Below are positions 7,577 through 38,400 of a stretch of 64,000 nt of DNA, piece by piece (positions within the stretch are counted from its first letter, which is position 1; every line of letters begins with the position of its first letter). Made by a program: the position numbers and the translations under genes. Where the stretch lies: positions 1,674,001 through 1,738,000 of the forward strand of contig CAKJVC010000068.1 in the NCBI GenBank assembly GCA_918026815.1, written 5' to 3'. This stretch comes from Chalara sp. BL73. Taxonomy: Eukaryota > Ascomycota > Leotiomycetes > Helotiales. The notes beneath the pieces were generated by a model. It was given only the letters and a program-made list of their open reading frames with translations. It searched no databases and was not told where the DNA came from.

Positions 7577-9818
7577 TTGATGCCAGTTGAAGCTGTTGCC
7601 ATTATGGCATCACTTTCATTAGCACGAGGTCCAGCTCGACCAGCTATCTACAACTCTTCTAGATGCGTCATTCAAACGACCAAGAACTCTCAGCGGGCGA
7701 CAAGACGGTGGATCGGAACGAAATACCTCGCGAAGATAGCAGATGCCGAGTTGAAATGGCAGGAGCGAGCTTTAGATATTCGGGCTGGAGATAAGAAGAG
7801 TATCCTCGATATTCTAGAGGAGCGTGGCTTGGTCGAACAAGTAACTGGGTACTTCACCAACATCACAGTACACATTTAAATACTTATCAAACTGCTTAGG
7901 ACTCGGGAAGAAGTCAATGACATGTTGATAGATGACCGGCTCGGAGCCTACGTTGGCATTGATCCCACCGCCGCTTCTCTACACGTTGGACATATGCTTC
8001 CACTCATGACCCTTTTCTGGATGTACGTACATGGGTATCACGCCGTAACATTACTAGGAGGGAGCACTGCGAAATTTGGCGATCCAACCGGGCGGACGAC
8101 TGCAAGAGAACCTGTTCATCGAACAGTGAGAGTGCAGAACATGGCGAGCATGCATTTCCAGTTGAAGAAGCTATGGCTTAATGTTGAAGCATATGCGCTT
8201 AAGTACGACTATAAGTGGGAGTGGGCTTGGAAGAGAGCTCTTGTTAATAACAATACATGGCTCGGCAAACTTACGTGGGTGGAGGCACTATCAATCATAG
8301 GCTACACACCAACTAGCCCAATGTTTGCGAAAAGAACGTGAGTAAAGAAGGACTGCCAATGGATGCTCAAGTAGACTAATGTCGACCAGAGTTAAAAACA
8401 AGCTTTCTGATAGCGAGCAAGGACTCACCTACGCAGAACTTTCGTACCCTCTCATGCAAGCTTGGGATTGGTGGCATATGTACAACACAATGGGTGTTAG
8501 GGTGCAGATTGGTGGATCCGATCAATATGGGAACATTACAGCTGGAGCAAAAGCTGTCAAACACATTGCAGTTACACATCCATCCCCCGAATTGCCAAAG
8601 AGAACCACGAAACCTGCGTTTGGACTGACAACCCCGCTTCTCACGACATCTTCTGGAGCAAAGTTTGGCAAAAGTGCGGGAAACGCGATATGGCTTGACG
8701 AAAACATGACAAGTCCCTACGATCTTTACAAGTATTTCCTGGGAACATCGGATGCCGATGTTGGGAGTTATCTCAAAAAGTTTACGTTTATGCCTATTGG
8801 GGACATTGATAAACTTGTGAAGGAGCACATGGAGGACGCTTCCAAACGAAAAGCCCAGCATAAGCTCGCTTTTGAGTTTGTCGAGCTCATCCATGGCGTC
8901 AAAGTTGCTGAGGAAACACAAGCCCAGCATCATGCTATTTTCCAGAAGCCTGCTGTGGATGCCAGTAGGGATCTTGTCGGGGCGAGTGCTTTGAGAGAAG
9001 CCCAAGTAAATCTGAACAATCGACCTAGAGCGCAATTGAAGCTTCCTCGAACCCTCATTGTAACGAAAAGCATCGGAAAGGTTCTTCATGCTTGTGGACT
9101 GGCAGATTCTGCATCCGAAGGACATCGACTTGCATCCCTCGGAGGCGCATGGATAGGTGCTGGCGCTGATCGCAAAAAGGAGTCCATGAGAGATGGTGCT
9201 GTAAATTGGAATCCGATCAAGACATGGAAACCAGAAGAGACCAAGAATTTCTTGGTGGACGACTCGCTGCTCCTGCTCAGACGTGGAAAGGCCAACGTTC
9301 GCTTCATCGAGGTGGTTGAGGATGAAGAGTATGAGAAACTGGGTTTGAGATATCCCGGTGACGGCAAGGGTCCGATTGATCCAACACATCGTAGTTCAGC
9401 TGATCTTACGCAGAAGCACTCACCAAGACTGCCTTCTGTTGTAGCGGCAAGCGCCCCGAAACCAGAAGCGAACTATCGTCCAGCGTGGACAGATATGCAG
9501 AATAGTATGAGAGAAGATGCATTGGAAGAGATAAAGGAGGCACACAGGGATGCAGAATGGGGAGTGGATGGATCGCCTAGACTGGACAAGGCGGACAGGC
9601 TGATTGAGGATAACATCGGCCCAGCTGAAAGGTTGGAAATGTTGCGACGTCAGTTTGAGAGGGATATCCAGGGAAAGCAGCTGAAGTTTGAGAAGAAACA
9701 TGCTCCAAAGGGCAAATTTATGGGTCATGGCCTCCCAAGAGGCCCGGCACCTGGAGAAGAATGGGCACCGCAAAGGTCATCTAGGAATGAGGAGTGGGGG
9801 GGTCGGGGGAAGAAGTAG
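7577..9818 (+). CDS. MSY1: Mitochondrial tyrosyl-tRNA synthetase
   Basis: Three exons, 7577-7848, 7900-8337 and 8390-9818, give 712 residues; introns are 51 and 52 bp. Class Ic synthetase signatures are present: YVGIDPTAASLHVGH (HIGH motif, about 119-122), QIGGSDQYGNI (tyrosine/AMP binding) and KFGKSAGN (KMSKS, near 327). An S4-like C-terminal domain follows (TLIVTKSIGKVLHACGLA), then a charged tail of about 170 residues. The N-terminus is basic and hydrophobic, suiting mitochondrial import. An in-frame start at 7604 is equally possible. The protein charges mitochondrial tRNA-Tyr. In Neurospora and relatives the orthologue (CYT-18) also folds group I introns; whether this one does is not visible from sequence. 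In-frame continuity across both introns supports the model. Confidence 0.94.
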
Positions 9819-32792: not shown

Positions 32793-33211
32793 TTAATGCC
32801 AGACCTTGTTGACCAGGTCGCGAATCACCCGCTTATAGGAACGATATGATCCATAACCGCCAGCAGGCGTGGGATAAGTACCGTAGCTTGCGTAACCACC
32901 AGCTGGAGCTGGGACAGGACCAGGCACGTTCACCGGGGCAGGAGGGGTGACTCCTTCGTAAGAGCCTATTAGAGTAAGAGTCAGGAACAACTGAAGATAT
33001 ATCACCTAATGCTGAGGCACATACCATAGCTGCCATATCCTCCCTCAGGTGCAGGAAAACTCGGGGCAGGAACAGGGGCATAAGAACCGTAGTCTCCATA
33101 TGCTCCGTACCCTTGACGTTTCTCGGGAGCAGCGGCCTCACTTCCCACCGGAATGGGTGCGGCGATGGCCGTGGTGGCAATGGCCAGAATGGTGACAAGA
33201 GTGAACTTCAT
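32793..33211 (-). CDS. Secreted Tyr/Gly-repeat protein, putative RiPP-like precursor
   Basis: Exons 33211-33025 and 32965-32793 (59 bp intron, GTATGT...TAG) give 119 residues. A signal peptide covers residues 1-18 (MKFTLVTILAIATTAIAA) and a short acidic propeptide ends in Lys31-Arg32, a Kex2-type site. Between this and a second Lys107-Arg108 lie four Tyr/Gly blocks: YGAYGDYGSY (35-44), GGYGSYGSY (57-65), GGYASYGTY (85-93) and GGYGSYRSY (98-106). Pro/Ala-rich linkers separate them. There are no cysteines. Cleavage would release a 75-residue Tyr-rich peptide with N-terminal Gln, plus an 11-residue tail. A divergent UstYa oxidase gene starts 1.05 kb away. It could be a post-translationally modified peptide precursor, a tyrosine-crosslinked wall protein, or an unmodified secreted protein. 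Gene model good; role inferred. Confidence 0.82.
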
Positions 33212-34261
33212 GACGGTATGTGCGAGAATGAATACTTATAAATACTGGAGCCTTGGTGAAGGGGGAGGAGAGAATAGAGTGACACCGGGAAGTATGGACG
33301 CAACAAGTCTTTATTCAAACCCAAGAGAGCAATATCAATATCGCTGCACAACAGGCCGCAAGCCGTCTAAGAGCTAAGGTATTAACAACGAAGGTAGCCC
33401 GTCATAAGCCCGCCTATTAGCCCTCTCTCAAGAAGGCACGATCAGCATGGCTATCCAAATCCAGTATGTGGTGGCACAACAACCATGTGCTTATCAGAGG
33501 CCATCAGAGCAACATCGGCAAAGCCCCAAAGAATATGGAAGTCTAGACTGGAGTTAGCCTGCAGCTCCTCGGTAAATCTAATATTTGAGAGGTCGCCACT
33601 TCACTAGGGCAGCAAACAGCTTCCGATATACAGCTGAAGGTTTGAGGACAACCCATACCACGAAATATGGAATATCCTTGAGTGCTCGATATCAGCGGAA
33701 GTTTTGGAGACTCGAGACTATCAACTTGGTAACACTATCCGCGCAACGATAAATTAAATCGATCACTACTGATTCTCTTCGTAGAGAGAGTTCTATGCTT
33801 TCAAAAGCGCTCCCGGGAGACGAATAGCCATGCTCGCCATGTGGCAGAACCTAGCTCATCGAGCCAAGTTGTGATCTTGGAACAGCAGGTAGTGGCTTGG
33901 ATCCCGTCGAAAGTCCAAAAAAAAGCAAATGCCCCCATAGGATCCCAGAAGCGATCTCCCAAGGATGCCGTGCCTAGACCAAACTTTAATGCGTAACTCC
34001 GATCTATCACATATGCCAAGCACGAGGCTGAAGGCTCCCCACAATCTCGCCAAATAAGCAAATAGCTTAGCATCTTTAGATCTTCAAGCCCAAAAGCCGC
34101 TTCATACTATGCCGCGTGTAGTGTGCTTTGCTACTTGGCATGTGATGCTCATGGACGACGTGTTTGGTATTCATGGGATAAAGCTGGTGTAAAAAGCTTT
34201 CAACTTAATGCCCATCTCATGACAGCTTAATATTTTCTCCTTTCCGGAGTAAGATTGCAAT
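33212..34261. promoter_or_regulatory. Shared divergent promoter of Tyr-repeat and UstYa genes
   Basis: 1050 bp between the two divergent starts. A TATAAA-like box on the minus strand at 33236-33243 is only about 25 bp from the Tyr-repeat ATG, close for a normal TATA. No gene is recognised; a minus-strand open frame at 33801-34073 shows no domain. Co-regulation is plausible but untested. Confidence 0.4.
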
Positions 34262-35326
34262 ATGTTGAAAGGATTTTTCAGTCGTGGAGCTCGGTTTAAT
34301 AAGATTTCTCAAGATGAGGACTGTGAATCCTTAGTCTCAAGTTCCAATAACTCTGAGAAGCTAGAACGATGTCCGCATCGGATCTTCTCCTTGAAAGAAG
34401 TTTCGATTCTAGTCCTAGGAACTTTCTTTGTGTCTGGTCTACTAGGAGCATGGATAGAAAGTCGTCATTTTCGAAGCCCAACTAGTTCAGCTATCAACCA
34501 AGTCTCGAAGTACTGTAGGTAGTTGCTTGTCAACTTGAGATTGAGTTATCTCTGACACATTTCCTAGCTCCGTTACTGCCGGATATAGACATCACCTTTA
34601 GCGAAGTCCAGTTCAATGGTTCACTCCTCAGAGAAAACGCCTTTCGGCAAGATGCAGGGCCAGATGTTGATGCAGCATGGGAATCTCTCGGAGTTAATTG
34701 TATGCGTAATCGCTTCTCATATAACGGTCAGTCAAGACTAACTTTCAGAAGATAGGGCTGCAATAGTGCCACAAGAACTAGCAGCAAAAAGCGGACTGAC
34801 TTCAGGCCAAGTCCAAGTCGCAGCGAAGTATGGGGGTGGATATCCGGCAAATGTCGAAGGGCTTCACCATTTGCATTGCTTGGTGAGATATAGCCTCCTC
34901 CTGAGACTCTCATACGCTAATCGCAGACATAGAACCTTCTTCGACAGTCGCTATACTATAATTTTGACTATTATCATGCTCTGGGACAAGGAGCATTCAA
35001 GAACGATGACAGAATCCTACACTTTCACGTTTGTAAGTTCCAACGGCATTGAGCAATATCCCATGAGCTGATCCCGGTATACAGCACATTGTCTTGATAT
35101 TCTCCGGCAACAACTTATGTGCACGGTTGACATCGGAGTGTTGGGCCAAGTATGGTGGAACAAGCAACAGCCCACTGCGTATCCAGACTTCAACACAAAG
35201 CACACATGCAGAAATTTCGAAGATGTGAGGAAATGGGCGGAGAAGCATCAAGCTCCTGCTGATGTACCGGATGACTATTTACAGCGACCACGAAGCATGG
35301 ATGAGGTTTCCGAATTCATACCCTAA
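34262..35326 (+). CDS. UstYa-like oxidase (DUF3328)
   Basis: Exons 34262-34514, 34568-34699, 34752-34882, 34933-35032 and 35085-35326 give 285 residues, the usual family length. A cytoplasmic N-terminus and one membrane anchor (VSILVLGTFFVSGLLGAWI, about 47-65) precede the DUF3328 domain. Landmarks include AWESLGVNYRAAIVP, the first HxxHC motif (HHLHC, 167-171) followed by LNLLRQ, and the second (HVSHC, 204-208) followed by LDILRQQLMC. TAYPDFNTKHTCRNFEDV near the C-terminus is also typical. The two HxxHC motifs are the presumed metal site, and both are intact. UstYa proteins catalyse oxidative cyclisation, halogenation or dehydrogenation in ribosomal and other natural-product pathways. Acceptor CAGAAG at 34751 is required, because the earlier CAG creates a stop. 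It is divergent from the Tyr-repeat gene and convergent with FluG. Confidence 0.93.
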
Positions 35327-35554: not shown

Positions 35555-38352
35555 TCAATATCTGTCGATGATCCACTCCCTCCGTTTCTCTTCGTCCATT
35601 CCCTCGAGCAATTTCATCTCCGCCTTTTTAACGGTGCAATATCTATCAACCACGTCTCTACCAAGGGCCTTGCAAAGAACTTGGTTTCTTTTCAAGCTCT
35701 CCAGTGCCTGGTTCAAATCCGAAGGAAGTGCTTCCGTGATTCCAAGATTTTTACGCTCTTGGGACGCAAGACTAGCCGGATCACCCTTACAATCCAGCCA
35801 GTATAGTACTTGGCCTGCGTTATGGCCATACGTCCCCGCTGATATAATTGCTGCTAGCGCAAGATACATATTTGCGAGACCATCCAAGCATTTAATCTCC
35901 CAGTGACTTCCTTCAATCTTCCGCAGAGGCGTTTCGCGATTTTGAGTCCCCCATGTCACCCACCTGCCACCCGCCCAACATCCATCGACAACGCGTTCAT
36001 AGCTAGCTGGTTTGCTATAAGTGAAAGCAATTATACCTGGGAGAGAAGATAGTATCCCGGCATAGAACGATTCATACGAAATAGTCTTTGACTTATCCAC
36101 AGATGAAACGGAAATATGGAGGTGACTTGCAGTACCTATCTCAATGGGAGATGGTTTTGGTATAAGTGTTGCACGCAATCCATGAGAAGCTACGACATTA
36201 CCGATAATTTCTCGCGCGTGCAATAGAGTGTCTACTGCTTCCAAAGGTGGAAGGGGAGGGAGAACGAATTCATACTGTCCATTTGCACCTTCAGGATGCC
36301 ATTGCTCTAGCTCAATGCCGGCACGAGCCAAGGTATCGTATATTTCCGTGAGCACTCTATAATTGTTATCGAGCGCTCTAGCGGAGTTCCAAGCATGGCT
36401 ACTTGAGGTCGTTAATGGCTTGTACTTTGAACCACTGTGTTGCTCCTCACAAGGGTTCCTGGAAAGAAACACGAATTCAATCTCAAAGCCCACTAGGAAA
36501 TCAAGATTGGAAGCTTTGGCTCGCTTCACAGCGCGTCGCAAGCTGGAGCGAGGACACAGGGCTACTTCTTGACCATCTTGTTCATAAAATTCGCCTTGCA
36601 CAGATGCGAAATGCTCGTTTGGCCCAGGCCGCAAAGAAGAGAAAATGGCCCTCAAGCGATATTCACCACTAGCGGTAACTCCAGGAATGATTGTATCATT
36701 TTGGAGGAGCCCTAGACTAGCTTTGGTGATTCCAATGTCAAGCTTTGGAAGCTGTCCATTTTGATGCAATGCTTGACCTCGAAGGATACTCAGAGCCTTT
36801 TTAGTTGGAATTACACGTAGACGAGGGGTTGCAGTATAATCCAAATACTGAAGACGTAAGAACTTAGTATCCGGATATGTAACGAGGAAGGATGTAAGCG
36901 TGGCCAGGTCACTAGTCGTGCTGGGGGACTAAACAAATTCCATGTCAGCATCATCCATAATGACAGATATAAAGTAACCATCGAAATTCTGCCATGGGAA
37001 TAAATGGCTCGTTAAACAAGCAAAATTAACGAGAGGCTTATTCCACAACTCTGAAGTAGATGGTGACACTCACGTGAGCCCTTTCTGGAAGAGGTTTAAG
37101 TGACAGACCCAAACCATAAAGCTTATTGGAAGTATTGAAGAAAAGGTCTTCAACCACTCTGATAGCTTGGGAAACATTCAGAACATCTTTTATAACATAA
37201 TCTGAGAGGACCTAATACATTAATCAATGTTTGACAGAGGTGAAGGTGCTGACCTACCACCTCCAAAGCTTCTCGCACTTGCATGACTGCCAGCAAAAAC
37301 GTCTCCGGGAACCAGTGACCATCTGTGCTCCAAAGTATCTTCTCAGTAGGGCAAAGCTCCAGAACCTCGCGGACCACTTTCTCTTGACCTTCCTTGCTAA
37401 TGAACGGAAACACCTCCCCAATGTCAGCATAGCAATTTTCATAGACGCTGGCTAGATAGCCCGCCTCCTTCGTCCAAGGGTAACTGGCATGCAGAAGGAC
37501 AATTGGAACCTCTGGAAATTTTCTGATGAAGCTCTGAAGATGGGAAGGAGATGATCGTGTTAGAGTGATATCGTTATCCCCAAGTCCTGTATGGAACTGT
37601 AGAGGCTTCTTCACACGGCTCGACGATTTCTCTATGATAGAAGCAGTGTGATGAACGATCCAGGTATTGAAATGCAGGCCGTCCAGCCTCGTGAAGTCGG
37701 TTTTGCCTTCAGAATTCAGCTTTGTGAGAAGCTCTACGAATTCTGCTCTAACCACAGAGCCGGACGGGAGTGTTAGACGAAGACCAGTTCGGTAGCAAAT
37801 TACGGATTTGAAGCCGACTACTTCTGGGTCTACGACTGCTGACTTGATGGCATCCTCAAACTCCCGCAAAATGCCTTCAGCTTTCTGTTCTGCAGAGAGT
37901 TCCCCATGTTGCTTCAAGTACCTGTCTATAATTTCCTCTGCAACCTTCTCAATGCGAACAATTCTTTTGCTTGGCGTCCTCGTCAATCGGTCATGCCAAG
38001 AATAATCAAGCACATCATCCTTTCCATCAAGGCCATCATCAATGAGTAGCATTTCAATGCCCTCAAAACACCGCTTTGCCCAAGCATCATCAGGTTTAGC
38101 CTTTTCGCGCTGTATGGCGCGAACAACTTCGTCCCAATCTTCCCCACAACCCAGAATAGAGGCCAACTGTTTAACCCCTCGAATATGTGGTAAGCTTGAC
38201 TTCGTACTTGATATGGCATTTCCGTGGGCTTCTGTAGTGATTGCTAAAAGATTGTGTTTGGTTTGTGCGGACGGGGCAAGAAGCGGGTGAGCGTGGTTAT
38301 CTACGATCGGTGTCCTGTGGATTGCTGTGATAAGGTCATTCAGACTAGTCAT
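35555..38352 (-). CDS. FluG-type amidohydrolase/glutamine synthetase fusion
   Basis: Exons 38352-37258, 37211-37074 and 36928-35555 give 868 residues, matching FluG (about 865). The N-terminal half is an amidohydrolase-2 domain: metal site DNHAHPLL near residue 19, QFHTGLGD, and LLHASYPW further on. The C-terminal half from about 450 is a type I glutamine-synthetase-like domain: GFEIEFVF, EGANGQYEF, GTASHLHIS and WGTQNRETPLRKI. In Aspergillus, FluG acts in the cytoplasm and is needed for an extracellular sporulation signal. Many fungi carry paralogues of unknown role, so this need not be the developmental orthologue. The last intron (145 bp) is much longer than the first (46 bp) and could hide a microexon. 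A TATAAAAG lies about 50 bp upstream. It converges with UstYa, 228 bp apart. Confidence 0.93.
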
Positions 38353-38400
38353 CTTGTTTTTGTGGTCTTAATCTACGATATCCGTGAGTAAATAATTGCC

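Follow-up and report, generated by a model that had tools for sequence, protein, structure and literature searches.

The 64-kb stretch of contig CAKJVC010000068.1 of Chalara sp. BL73 analysed here (positions 1,674,001 to 1,738,000; hereafter the window) contains a small gene for a putative secreted, tyrosine-rich precursor peptide, placed divergently to a gene for an oxidase of the UstYa (DUF3328) family. A preliminary description of this DNA had proposed a 119-residue precursor with four Tyr/Gly blocks between two Lys-Arg (KR) sites and, about 1.05 kb away, a complete divergent UstYa gene with both HxxHC motifs. Splicing and translation confirmed the precursor, and the UstYa gene was likewise confirmed, with the two start codons 1,051 bp apart (ATG to ATG). 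The features of the locus, in window coordinates, are as follows.

32793..33211, minus: precursor gene, start at 33211 (ATG), end of the stop codon at 32793, 119 amino acids, from splicing and translation
33025-33211 and 32793-32965, minus: precursor exons, separated by a single GT-AG intron of 59 nt (32966-33024)
33158..33211, minus: putative signal-peptide-like N-terminus, about residues 1-18 (MKFTLVTILAIATTAIAA), judged by eye
33116..33121, minus: first Kex2-type site, KR31-32, from translation
32835..33115, minus: Tyr-Gly/Pro-Ala segment, residues 33-106, 74 amino acids, split by the intron
32829..32834, minus: second Kex2-type site, KR107-108, immediately past Tyr106, from translation
32796..32828, minus: C-terminal tail, residues 109-119, VIRDLVNKVWH, 11 residues, from translation
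33212..34261: divergent intergenic region, 1,050 bp
34262..35326, plus: UstYa/DUF3328 gene, 285 amino acids, from splicing and translation, PF11807 and homologues
34262-34514, 34568-34699, 34752-34882, 34933-35032 and 35085-35326, plus: UstYa exons
34515-34567, 34700-34751, 34883-34932 and 35033-35084, plus: the four UstYa introns
34865..34879, plus: first HxxHC motif, HHLHC, residues 167-171
35026..35092, plus: second HxxHC motif, HVSHC, residues 204-208, interrupted by the fourth intron

The precursor and the oxidase of the window

The four Tyr/Gly blocks of the precursor (GYGAYGDYGSY, GGYGSYGSY, GGYASYGTY and GGYGSYRSY) are flanked by KR31-32 and KR107-108. All 13 tyrosines of the protein fall inside the 74-residue segment, where they form nine YxxY pairs. 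A six-frame scan of the window gave two matches of the motif Y[GASP]xY[GASP]xY, which was picked post hoc after the precursors were known, and both matches were in the precursor gene. The segment had been called richer in Tyr than described cores, which holds by number (13 Tyr) and fails by fraction (13 of 74 residues against three of six in FYYTGY, the core of asperipin-2a).

The window UstYa matched PF11807 with 186.1 bits (cut-off 25, E 1.1e-54, scored on a translation 5 amino acids short at one acceptor), and it contains the family signature HxxHC(x)nHxxHC. In an alignment of 72 rows (A3), His167, His170, Cys171 and His204 were invariant, and His207 and Cys208 were conserved in at least 90%. 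Judged by profile match and motifs, the enzyme is a clear member of the UstYa family. It shared 96% identity with B0O99DRAFT_513547 of Bisporella sp. PMI_857. The AlphaFold model of the 96% identical Bisporella homologue (P0030) had a mean predicted local distance difference test (pLDDT) of 73.3 and a predicted template-modelling score (pTM) of 0.62, with an input alignment of 72 rows, one of them duplicated; it placed an N-terminal helix at residues 44-69 and the two HxxHC motifs on helices 164-178 and 198-218.

According to PMC12435403, the cyclochlorotine hydroxylase CctR is a membrane-anchored, O2-using homodimer with two coppers per monomer, and its activity requires the HxxHC motifs. The predicted Bisporella structure is compatible with a CctR-like membrane-anchored architecture, the likeness lying in a DUF3328 protein with two HxxHC motifs and, in the model, in the N-terminal helix and the helical position of both motifs. 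The two differ in that the substrate of CctR is a non-ribosomal cyclic peptide, which is hydroxylated, whereas the window enzyme would act on a ribosomal peptide.

Paralogous pairs and control regions in the same genome

Genome searches covered the 58.7-Mb assembly. With the window precursor as query, tblastn pointed to one other place, here called C86, at an insignificant E of 0.283. The C86 precursor of 253 amino acids contains four Tyr units of about 37 residues, each ended by YKR, an arrangement customary among Kex2-repeat proteins, and it is divergent from a UstYa gene at a distance of 1,542 bp (ATG to ATG). The four introns of this UstYa gene interrupt sequence matching the window UstYa, and its product was 99% identical to B0O99DRAFT_505716 of Bisporella sp. 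PMI_857. Together with the 96% identity of the window UstYa, this marks the host as a Bisporella-like fungus within Helotiales. While C86 was reached from the precursor side, a third pair, C118, was reached from the enzyme side: the closest genomic matches of the window UstYa were C86 (57-62% identity by exon) and C118 (54-58%), and the remaining matches were at most 42% identical. The C118 precursor of 78 amino acids, with the C-terminus ANYGNYGAYGKYGTYGNYGVYKRSEEEAE, is divergent from its UstYa gene, whose start is 1,002 bp away; the precursor core has about 21 residues, and the tail past YKR is SEEEAE. Both the C86 and the C118 small proteins carry YxxYxxY runs with a terminal Tyr-Lys-Arg.

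Besides its own exons, the C86 precursor as a tblastn query hit just two places, the window gene at E 1.7e-8 and C118 at E 0.285; the C118 precursor found itself and two chance matches. No fourth precursor emerged from genome tblastn with all three, a search in which exon-by-exon scoring of the best candidates could miss a diverged member. The lack of KR between the repeats, earlier described as odd, is true of the window gene; C86 has four KR-bounded units, and the window gene is therefore a one-unit relative, so that its lack of internal KR is explained as family variation and is no oddity.

The PF11807 search of the genome gave 89 matches, which were grouped into 63 gene-like clusters and 52 regions, some of these resting on 78-bp matches alone. 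Three regions carry the Tyr-precursor pairs, and 20 of the other 49 (196,911 bases) served as controls; they were the first 20 in contig order, a non-random choice, and two pairs of them (L019/L020 and L026/L027) resemble near copies. None of the 20 control UstYa regions showed a Tyr-precursor-like gene. The motif Y[GASP]xY[GASP]xY was found seven times in the C86 stretch and twice in the C118 stretch, every match being in the precursors; the controls gave four matches, all in the near-identical L019/L020, where no secreted frame was seen. Presence of the pair in 3/3 regions of the close subgroup vs 0/20 controls gave a Fisher p of 5.6e-4 with the discovery window counted in, and 2/2 vs 0/20 without it, which is 1 in 231 (calculated by hand).

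In four of the 20 controls, Kex2-repeat proteins of other kinds were found, each encoded on the strand opposite to UstYa and divergent from it. Their repeats bear no relation to those of the Tyr-Gly proteins; they are SWAAA-KR (in two near copies), SYLPN/T-KR and YIAKR/YVAKR. The regions are the following.

C14:617287-627286: L024, control region with Kex2 repeats
C41:9760-19759: L026, control region with Kex2 repeats
C42:1-10000: L027, control region with Kex2 repeats
C44:587318-597317: L028, control region with Kex2 repeats

Divergent pairs of oxidase and precursor genes thus recur across the genome, and in the regions inspected it is one UstYa subgroup that the YxxY substrate accompanies.

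Some of the controls showed signs of duplication. The Kex2-repeat copy of L027 is out of frame relative to that of L026, and three contigs (C10 = L019, C11 = L020, and C156) carry one and the same UstYa match of 78 bp. L019 and L020 share the same motif matches at near-equal positions and thus resemble duplicated contig-end regions.

The precursor family and its linkage to UstYa in other fungi

A single-sequence search found 29 precursor homologues at E <= 0.01, and a profile search found 171 at E <= 0.001, of which the best 120 were listed. The 122 distinct listed sequences and the three from the own genome formed a family set of 125; since it was selected by similarity, its Tyr statistics describe the family and are no test. 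At least two YxxY were present in all 125 members. The commonest Tyr-to-Tyr gaps were 3 (973 times) and 7 (243 times), and the third commonest gap occurred 25 times. Tyr followed by K/R and then by R, K or E was found in 110 members, twice or more in 15; most members have a single YKR-type end, and at least three such ends occurred in two. A Tyr-dibasic end was found in 101 of the 122 homologues. In an alignment of 28 sequences (A1), the invariant and near-invariant core positions were Tyr, Gly, Pro and the final Arg. Conservation and spacing support Tyr as the residue that would be modified. Named members among the matches listed came from at least five classes, namely Geoglossomycetes, Dothideomycetes, Leotiomycetes, Sordariomycetes and Lecanoromycetes. 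One listed protein, P0157 of Sporothrix bragantina, is labelled as a snoRNP complex protein; it opens like a Tyr-Gly precursor, its C-terminal end is a Nop10-type domain (PF04135), and it is probably a gene-model fusion.

The tail past the last Tyr-dibasic site was hydrophobic and non-acidic by a crude rule in 62 of the 122 homologues, with 10-11 residues (e.g. AVTDFFKKIFG), acidic in 22 and almost absent in six. This tail, often a hydrophobic, weakly cationic 10-11-mer, could itself be the active product, with the Tyr region as a carrier; the 62 hydrophobic tails speak for this, but the acidic and nearly missing ones, among them SEEEAE of C118, speak against it, as does the finding that nearly all invariant or near-invariant positions of alignment A1 lie in the Tyr region and not in the tail, and we regard it as distinctly improbable. 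The homologue tail may also serve as a recognition follower or be a further peptide.

Linkage in other species was judged indirectly, from locus tags and equal contig sizes in the homologue lists. In Geoglossum umbratile, the precursor M1839_000997 and the UstYa M1839_000998 have consecutive tags on one contig of 101,775 bp. Precursor and UstYa also share a contig in Mollisia scopiformis (1,547,631 bp) and in Patellaria atrata (172,349 bp). The preliminary description had proposed as a test whether homologues routinely occur away from a UstYa gene. All three precursors found in the own genome have a UstYa neighbour, and among the five species in both lists the listed pair was on one contig in three and apart in two.

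With UstYa genes so numerous (89 matches in about 63 clusters and 52 regions), a Tyr-rich secreted protein might come to lie beside one of them by chance. This is hardly credible, given that the UstYa subgroup of the window includes two more divergent pairs, that the tags in Geoglossum are consecutive and that two more species have both genes on one contig; the locus is real and conserved, and coincidence is very unlikely.

A tree of 43 UstYa proteins, whose root serves for drawing only, placed the linked proteins on separate branches: those of the window, Geoglossum and Mollisia stand together, apart from those of Patellaria, C86 and C118. The split between the window side and the C86 side was weak (55/89). 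A group of 26 rows with Patellaria, C86 and C118 had a support of 97/90, and it includes the proteins of both species in which the listed pair lies apart. These positions suggest that the linkage of precursor and UstYa is ancestral; if so, the whole UstYa subfamily, its Aspergillus and Penicillium members included, may act on such peptides. The pairing ties a defined DUF3328 subfamily to a defined substrate family, a relation seen repeatedly within one genome and again in another fungal class, so that the substrates of many fungal UstYa proteins become a question testable with two genes.

Proposed processing and relation to known peptides

Among the open reading frames (ORFs) scanned, 20 in the window by Pfam as well as those in the surroundings of C86 and C118, no third biosynthetic gene common to the loci was found, short exons lying outside the scan; the two-gene reading is provisional because of these unscanned exons. 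With this proviso, the locus is probably a minimal UstYa/Kex2 cassette for a ribosomally synthesized and post-translationally modified peptide (RiPP), consisting of precursor and oxidase, in which the oxidase acts on Tyr at positions i and i+3, most likely by crosslinking. The precursor would enter the secretory pathway, and Kex2 would cut past KR31-32 and KR107-108 to give a 74-residue Tyr-Gly/Pro-Ala peptide, while the C86 precursor would give several shorter units. UstYa, as a putative membrane-anchored luminal copper oxidase (copper, topology and O2 being taken from CctR), would act on the Tyr of YxxY, and neighbouring Tyr (i to i+3) would most likely be joined oxidatively, before or after Kex2 cleavage. 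The earlier proposal that the oxidase modifies the precursor tyrosines stood in part: by repeated linkage, action of UstYa on the window Kex2-type precursor is well supported, and conservation and spacing point to Tyr, while we infer the crosslink chemistry from asperipin-2a and CctR. We also infer secretion, Kex2 cleavage and the enzyme-substrate relation for the window pair.

The closest known parallel for such chemistry is asperipin-2a of Aspergillus flavus, whose core FYYTGY carries ethers between Tyr side chains and beta-carbons; AprY is the single UstY-type enzyme of its four-gene cluster (aprA, aprY, aprT, aprR), as given in PMC6514808. Both systems would combine a ribosomal precursor and one UstY-type oxidase with a Tyr-rich core, in which YTGY of asperipin-2a is a YxxY. 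They differ in length, the asperipin-2a core being a hexapeptide whereas the window has a segment of 74 residues and C86 has units of about 37, and no aprT- or aprR-like gene was present among the window ORFs scanned. Repeats of FYYTGY between Kex2 sites, typical of the asperipin type, are absent from the window precursor. The same gene pair might also act by other chemistry, hydroxylating Tyr or its beta-carbon without crosslinks and giving, for example, residues like 3,4-dihydroxyphenylalanine (DOPA). This agrees with CctR, a DUF3328 enzyme and a copper- and O2-dependent hydroxylase (PMC12435403), but the strict i,i+3 spacing (973 gaps of 3 vs 25 of the third commonest) suggests Tyr pairing, and one UstY-type protein makes the Tyr ethers in asperipin-2a (PMC6514808), so that hydroxylation alone seems unlikely.

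Dikaritins such as ustiloxins and phomopsins resemble the locus in having a DUF3328 oxidase next to a Kex2-type precursor, with Tyr modification expected. Two definitions of the class are found in PMC12048977, an older one with five genes and a newer one with DUF3328 as the class-defining enzyme. The window locus, with a DUF3328 gene beside a precursor gene, falls under the newer definition. The older definition includes several DUF3328 genes, and the PF11807 search showed one in the window (two overlapping matches); the tyrosinase and the methyltransferase of that definition were not found among the 20 window ORFs scanned with Pfam, a scan that did not extend to small exons. The window locus thus differs from dikaritins in its single DUF3328 gene and its much longer core. 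It is dikaritin-like by the newer definition, no proven dikaritin, and would by analogy work like the biosynthesis of asperipin-2a. The 'new RiPP class' of the preliminary description was too strong, and a variant of the UstYa/Kex2 kind fits.

A DUF3328 neighbour has been reported for 22% of 7878 Kex2-processed repeat proteins (KEPs), defined by at least three tandem repeats of at least 8 amino acids between Kex2 sites (Umemura 2020, PMC7329392). The window precursor shares with KEPs a putative signal-like N-terminus (by eye), the dibasic sites and the DUF3328 neighbour, and C86 also has four Kex2-bounded units. In contrast to KEPs, the window precursor has one unit, fewer than the repeat rule asks for, whereas the four units of C86 suffice by count. 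Because the rule of at least three repeats passes over members with a single YKR-type end, Kex2-repeat surveys may undercount UstYa-linked peptides. No fungal paper was found with family-typical sequence strings in a search that did not reach supplementary files and the logos of Umemura 2020, so some multi-unit members may already be listed there.

Composition could also point to a different role for the product, one close to the crosslinked wall peptide of the preliminary description. The precursor may resemble plant wall or adhesive proteins. The long repetitive Tyr/Gly/Pro sequence could form a secreted polymer that is activated by the oxidase and crosslinked into the wall or extracellular matrix as a non-diffusible structural peptide; homologues in five classes and the lack of a common third biosynthetic gene among the scanned ORFs suit such a general role over a strain-specific toxin. 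Kex2-type sites and the excision of four units from C86 better suit released peptides, the C118 core has just about 21 residues, and the window precursor had no Pfam match and hence no wall-binding domain was found in it; we consider a structural peptide rather unlikely.

Several observations weigh against the crosslinking cassette proposed here. Crosslinking is not the sole possible outcome because DUF3328 proteins can also hydroxylate and halogenate (PMC12435403). The window segment of 74 residues is far longer than known cores, and a dibasic site at the position of KR31-32 was found in just 37 of the 122 homologues. The intergenic regions of the window, C86 and C118 had no common promoter motif above resampled sequence. 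In Mollisia scopiformis and Patellaria atrata the evidence is at the level of a shared contig. The listed precursor and UstYa lie on separate contigs in Mollisiaceae sp. DMI_Dod_QoI (123,170 and 844,654 bp) and in Pseudogymnoascus VKM F-4518 (64,173 and 54,988 bp), and Bisporella sp. PMI_857 had no precursor among the matches listed, though its two UstYa proteins were; the lists comprise the best 120 of 514 UstYa and the best 120 of 171 precursors, and cognate genes may lie beyond them.

Beyond the single locus, we tentatively raise the possibility, itself doubtful, that a UstYa subfamily across Pezizomycotina is dedicated to one old Tyr-Gly peptide family and, with precursor and oxidase as the minimal set, makes ladder-like, multiply i,i+3-crosslinked secreted peptides of up to about 74 residues, with a general role (matrix, adhesion or signalling) and not that of a strain-specific toxin. 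Were every YxxY joined, the resulting peptides would far exceed known UstYa products, such as the six-residue asperipin-2a, in size and regularity.

The scanned window ORFs include MutS, an M28 peptidase and a glutamine-synthetase/amidohydrolase pair. This pair, at 35558-38367 on the minus strand, adjoins the UstYa gene and is convergent with it; its glutamine synthetase catalytic domain (35558-36928) and Amidohydro_2 (37153-38367) look like one gene, presumably FluG-like. A GDSL lipase, an amino-acid permease and a Cu amine oxidase N2 domain were found near C86, the last in an ORF at L012:427-795 on the minus strand, about 2.7 kb past the precursor gene, and an ATG17-like gene was found near C118. 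A tyrosyl-tRNA synthetase gene (tRNA-synt_1b and TyrRSs_C) at 8346-9815 on the plus strand of the window is some 23 kb away from the gene of the Tyr-rich precursor, a proximity that was taken as a coincidence.

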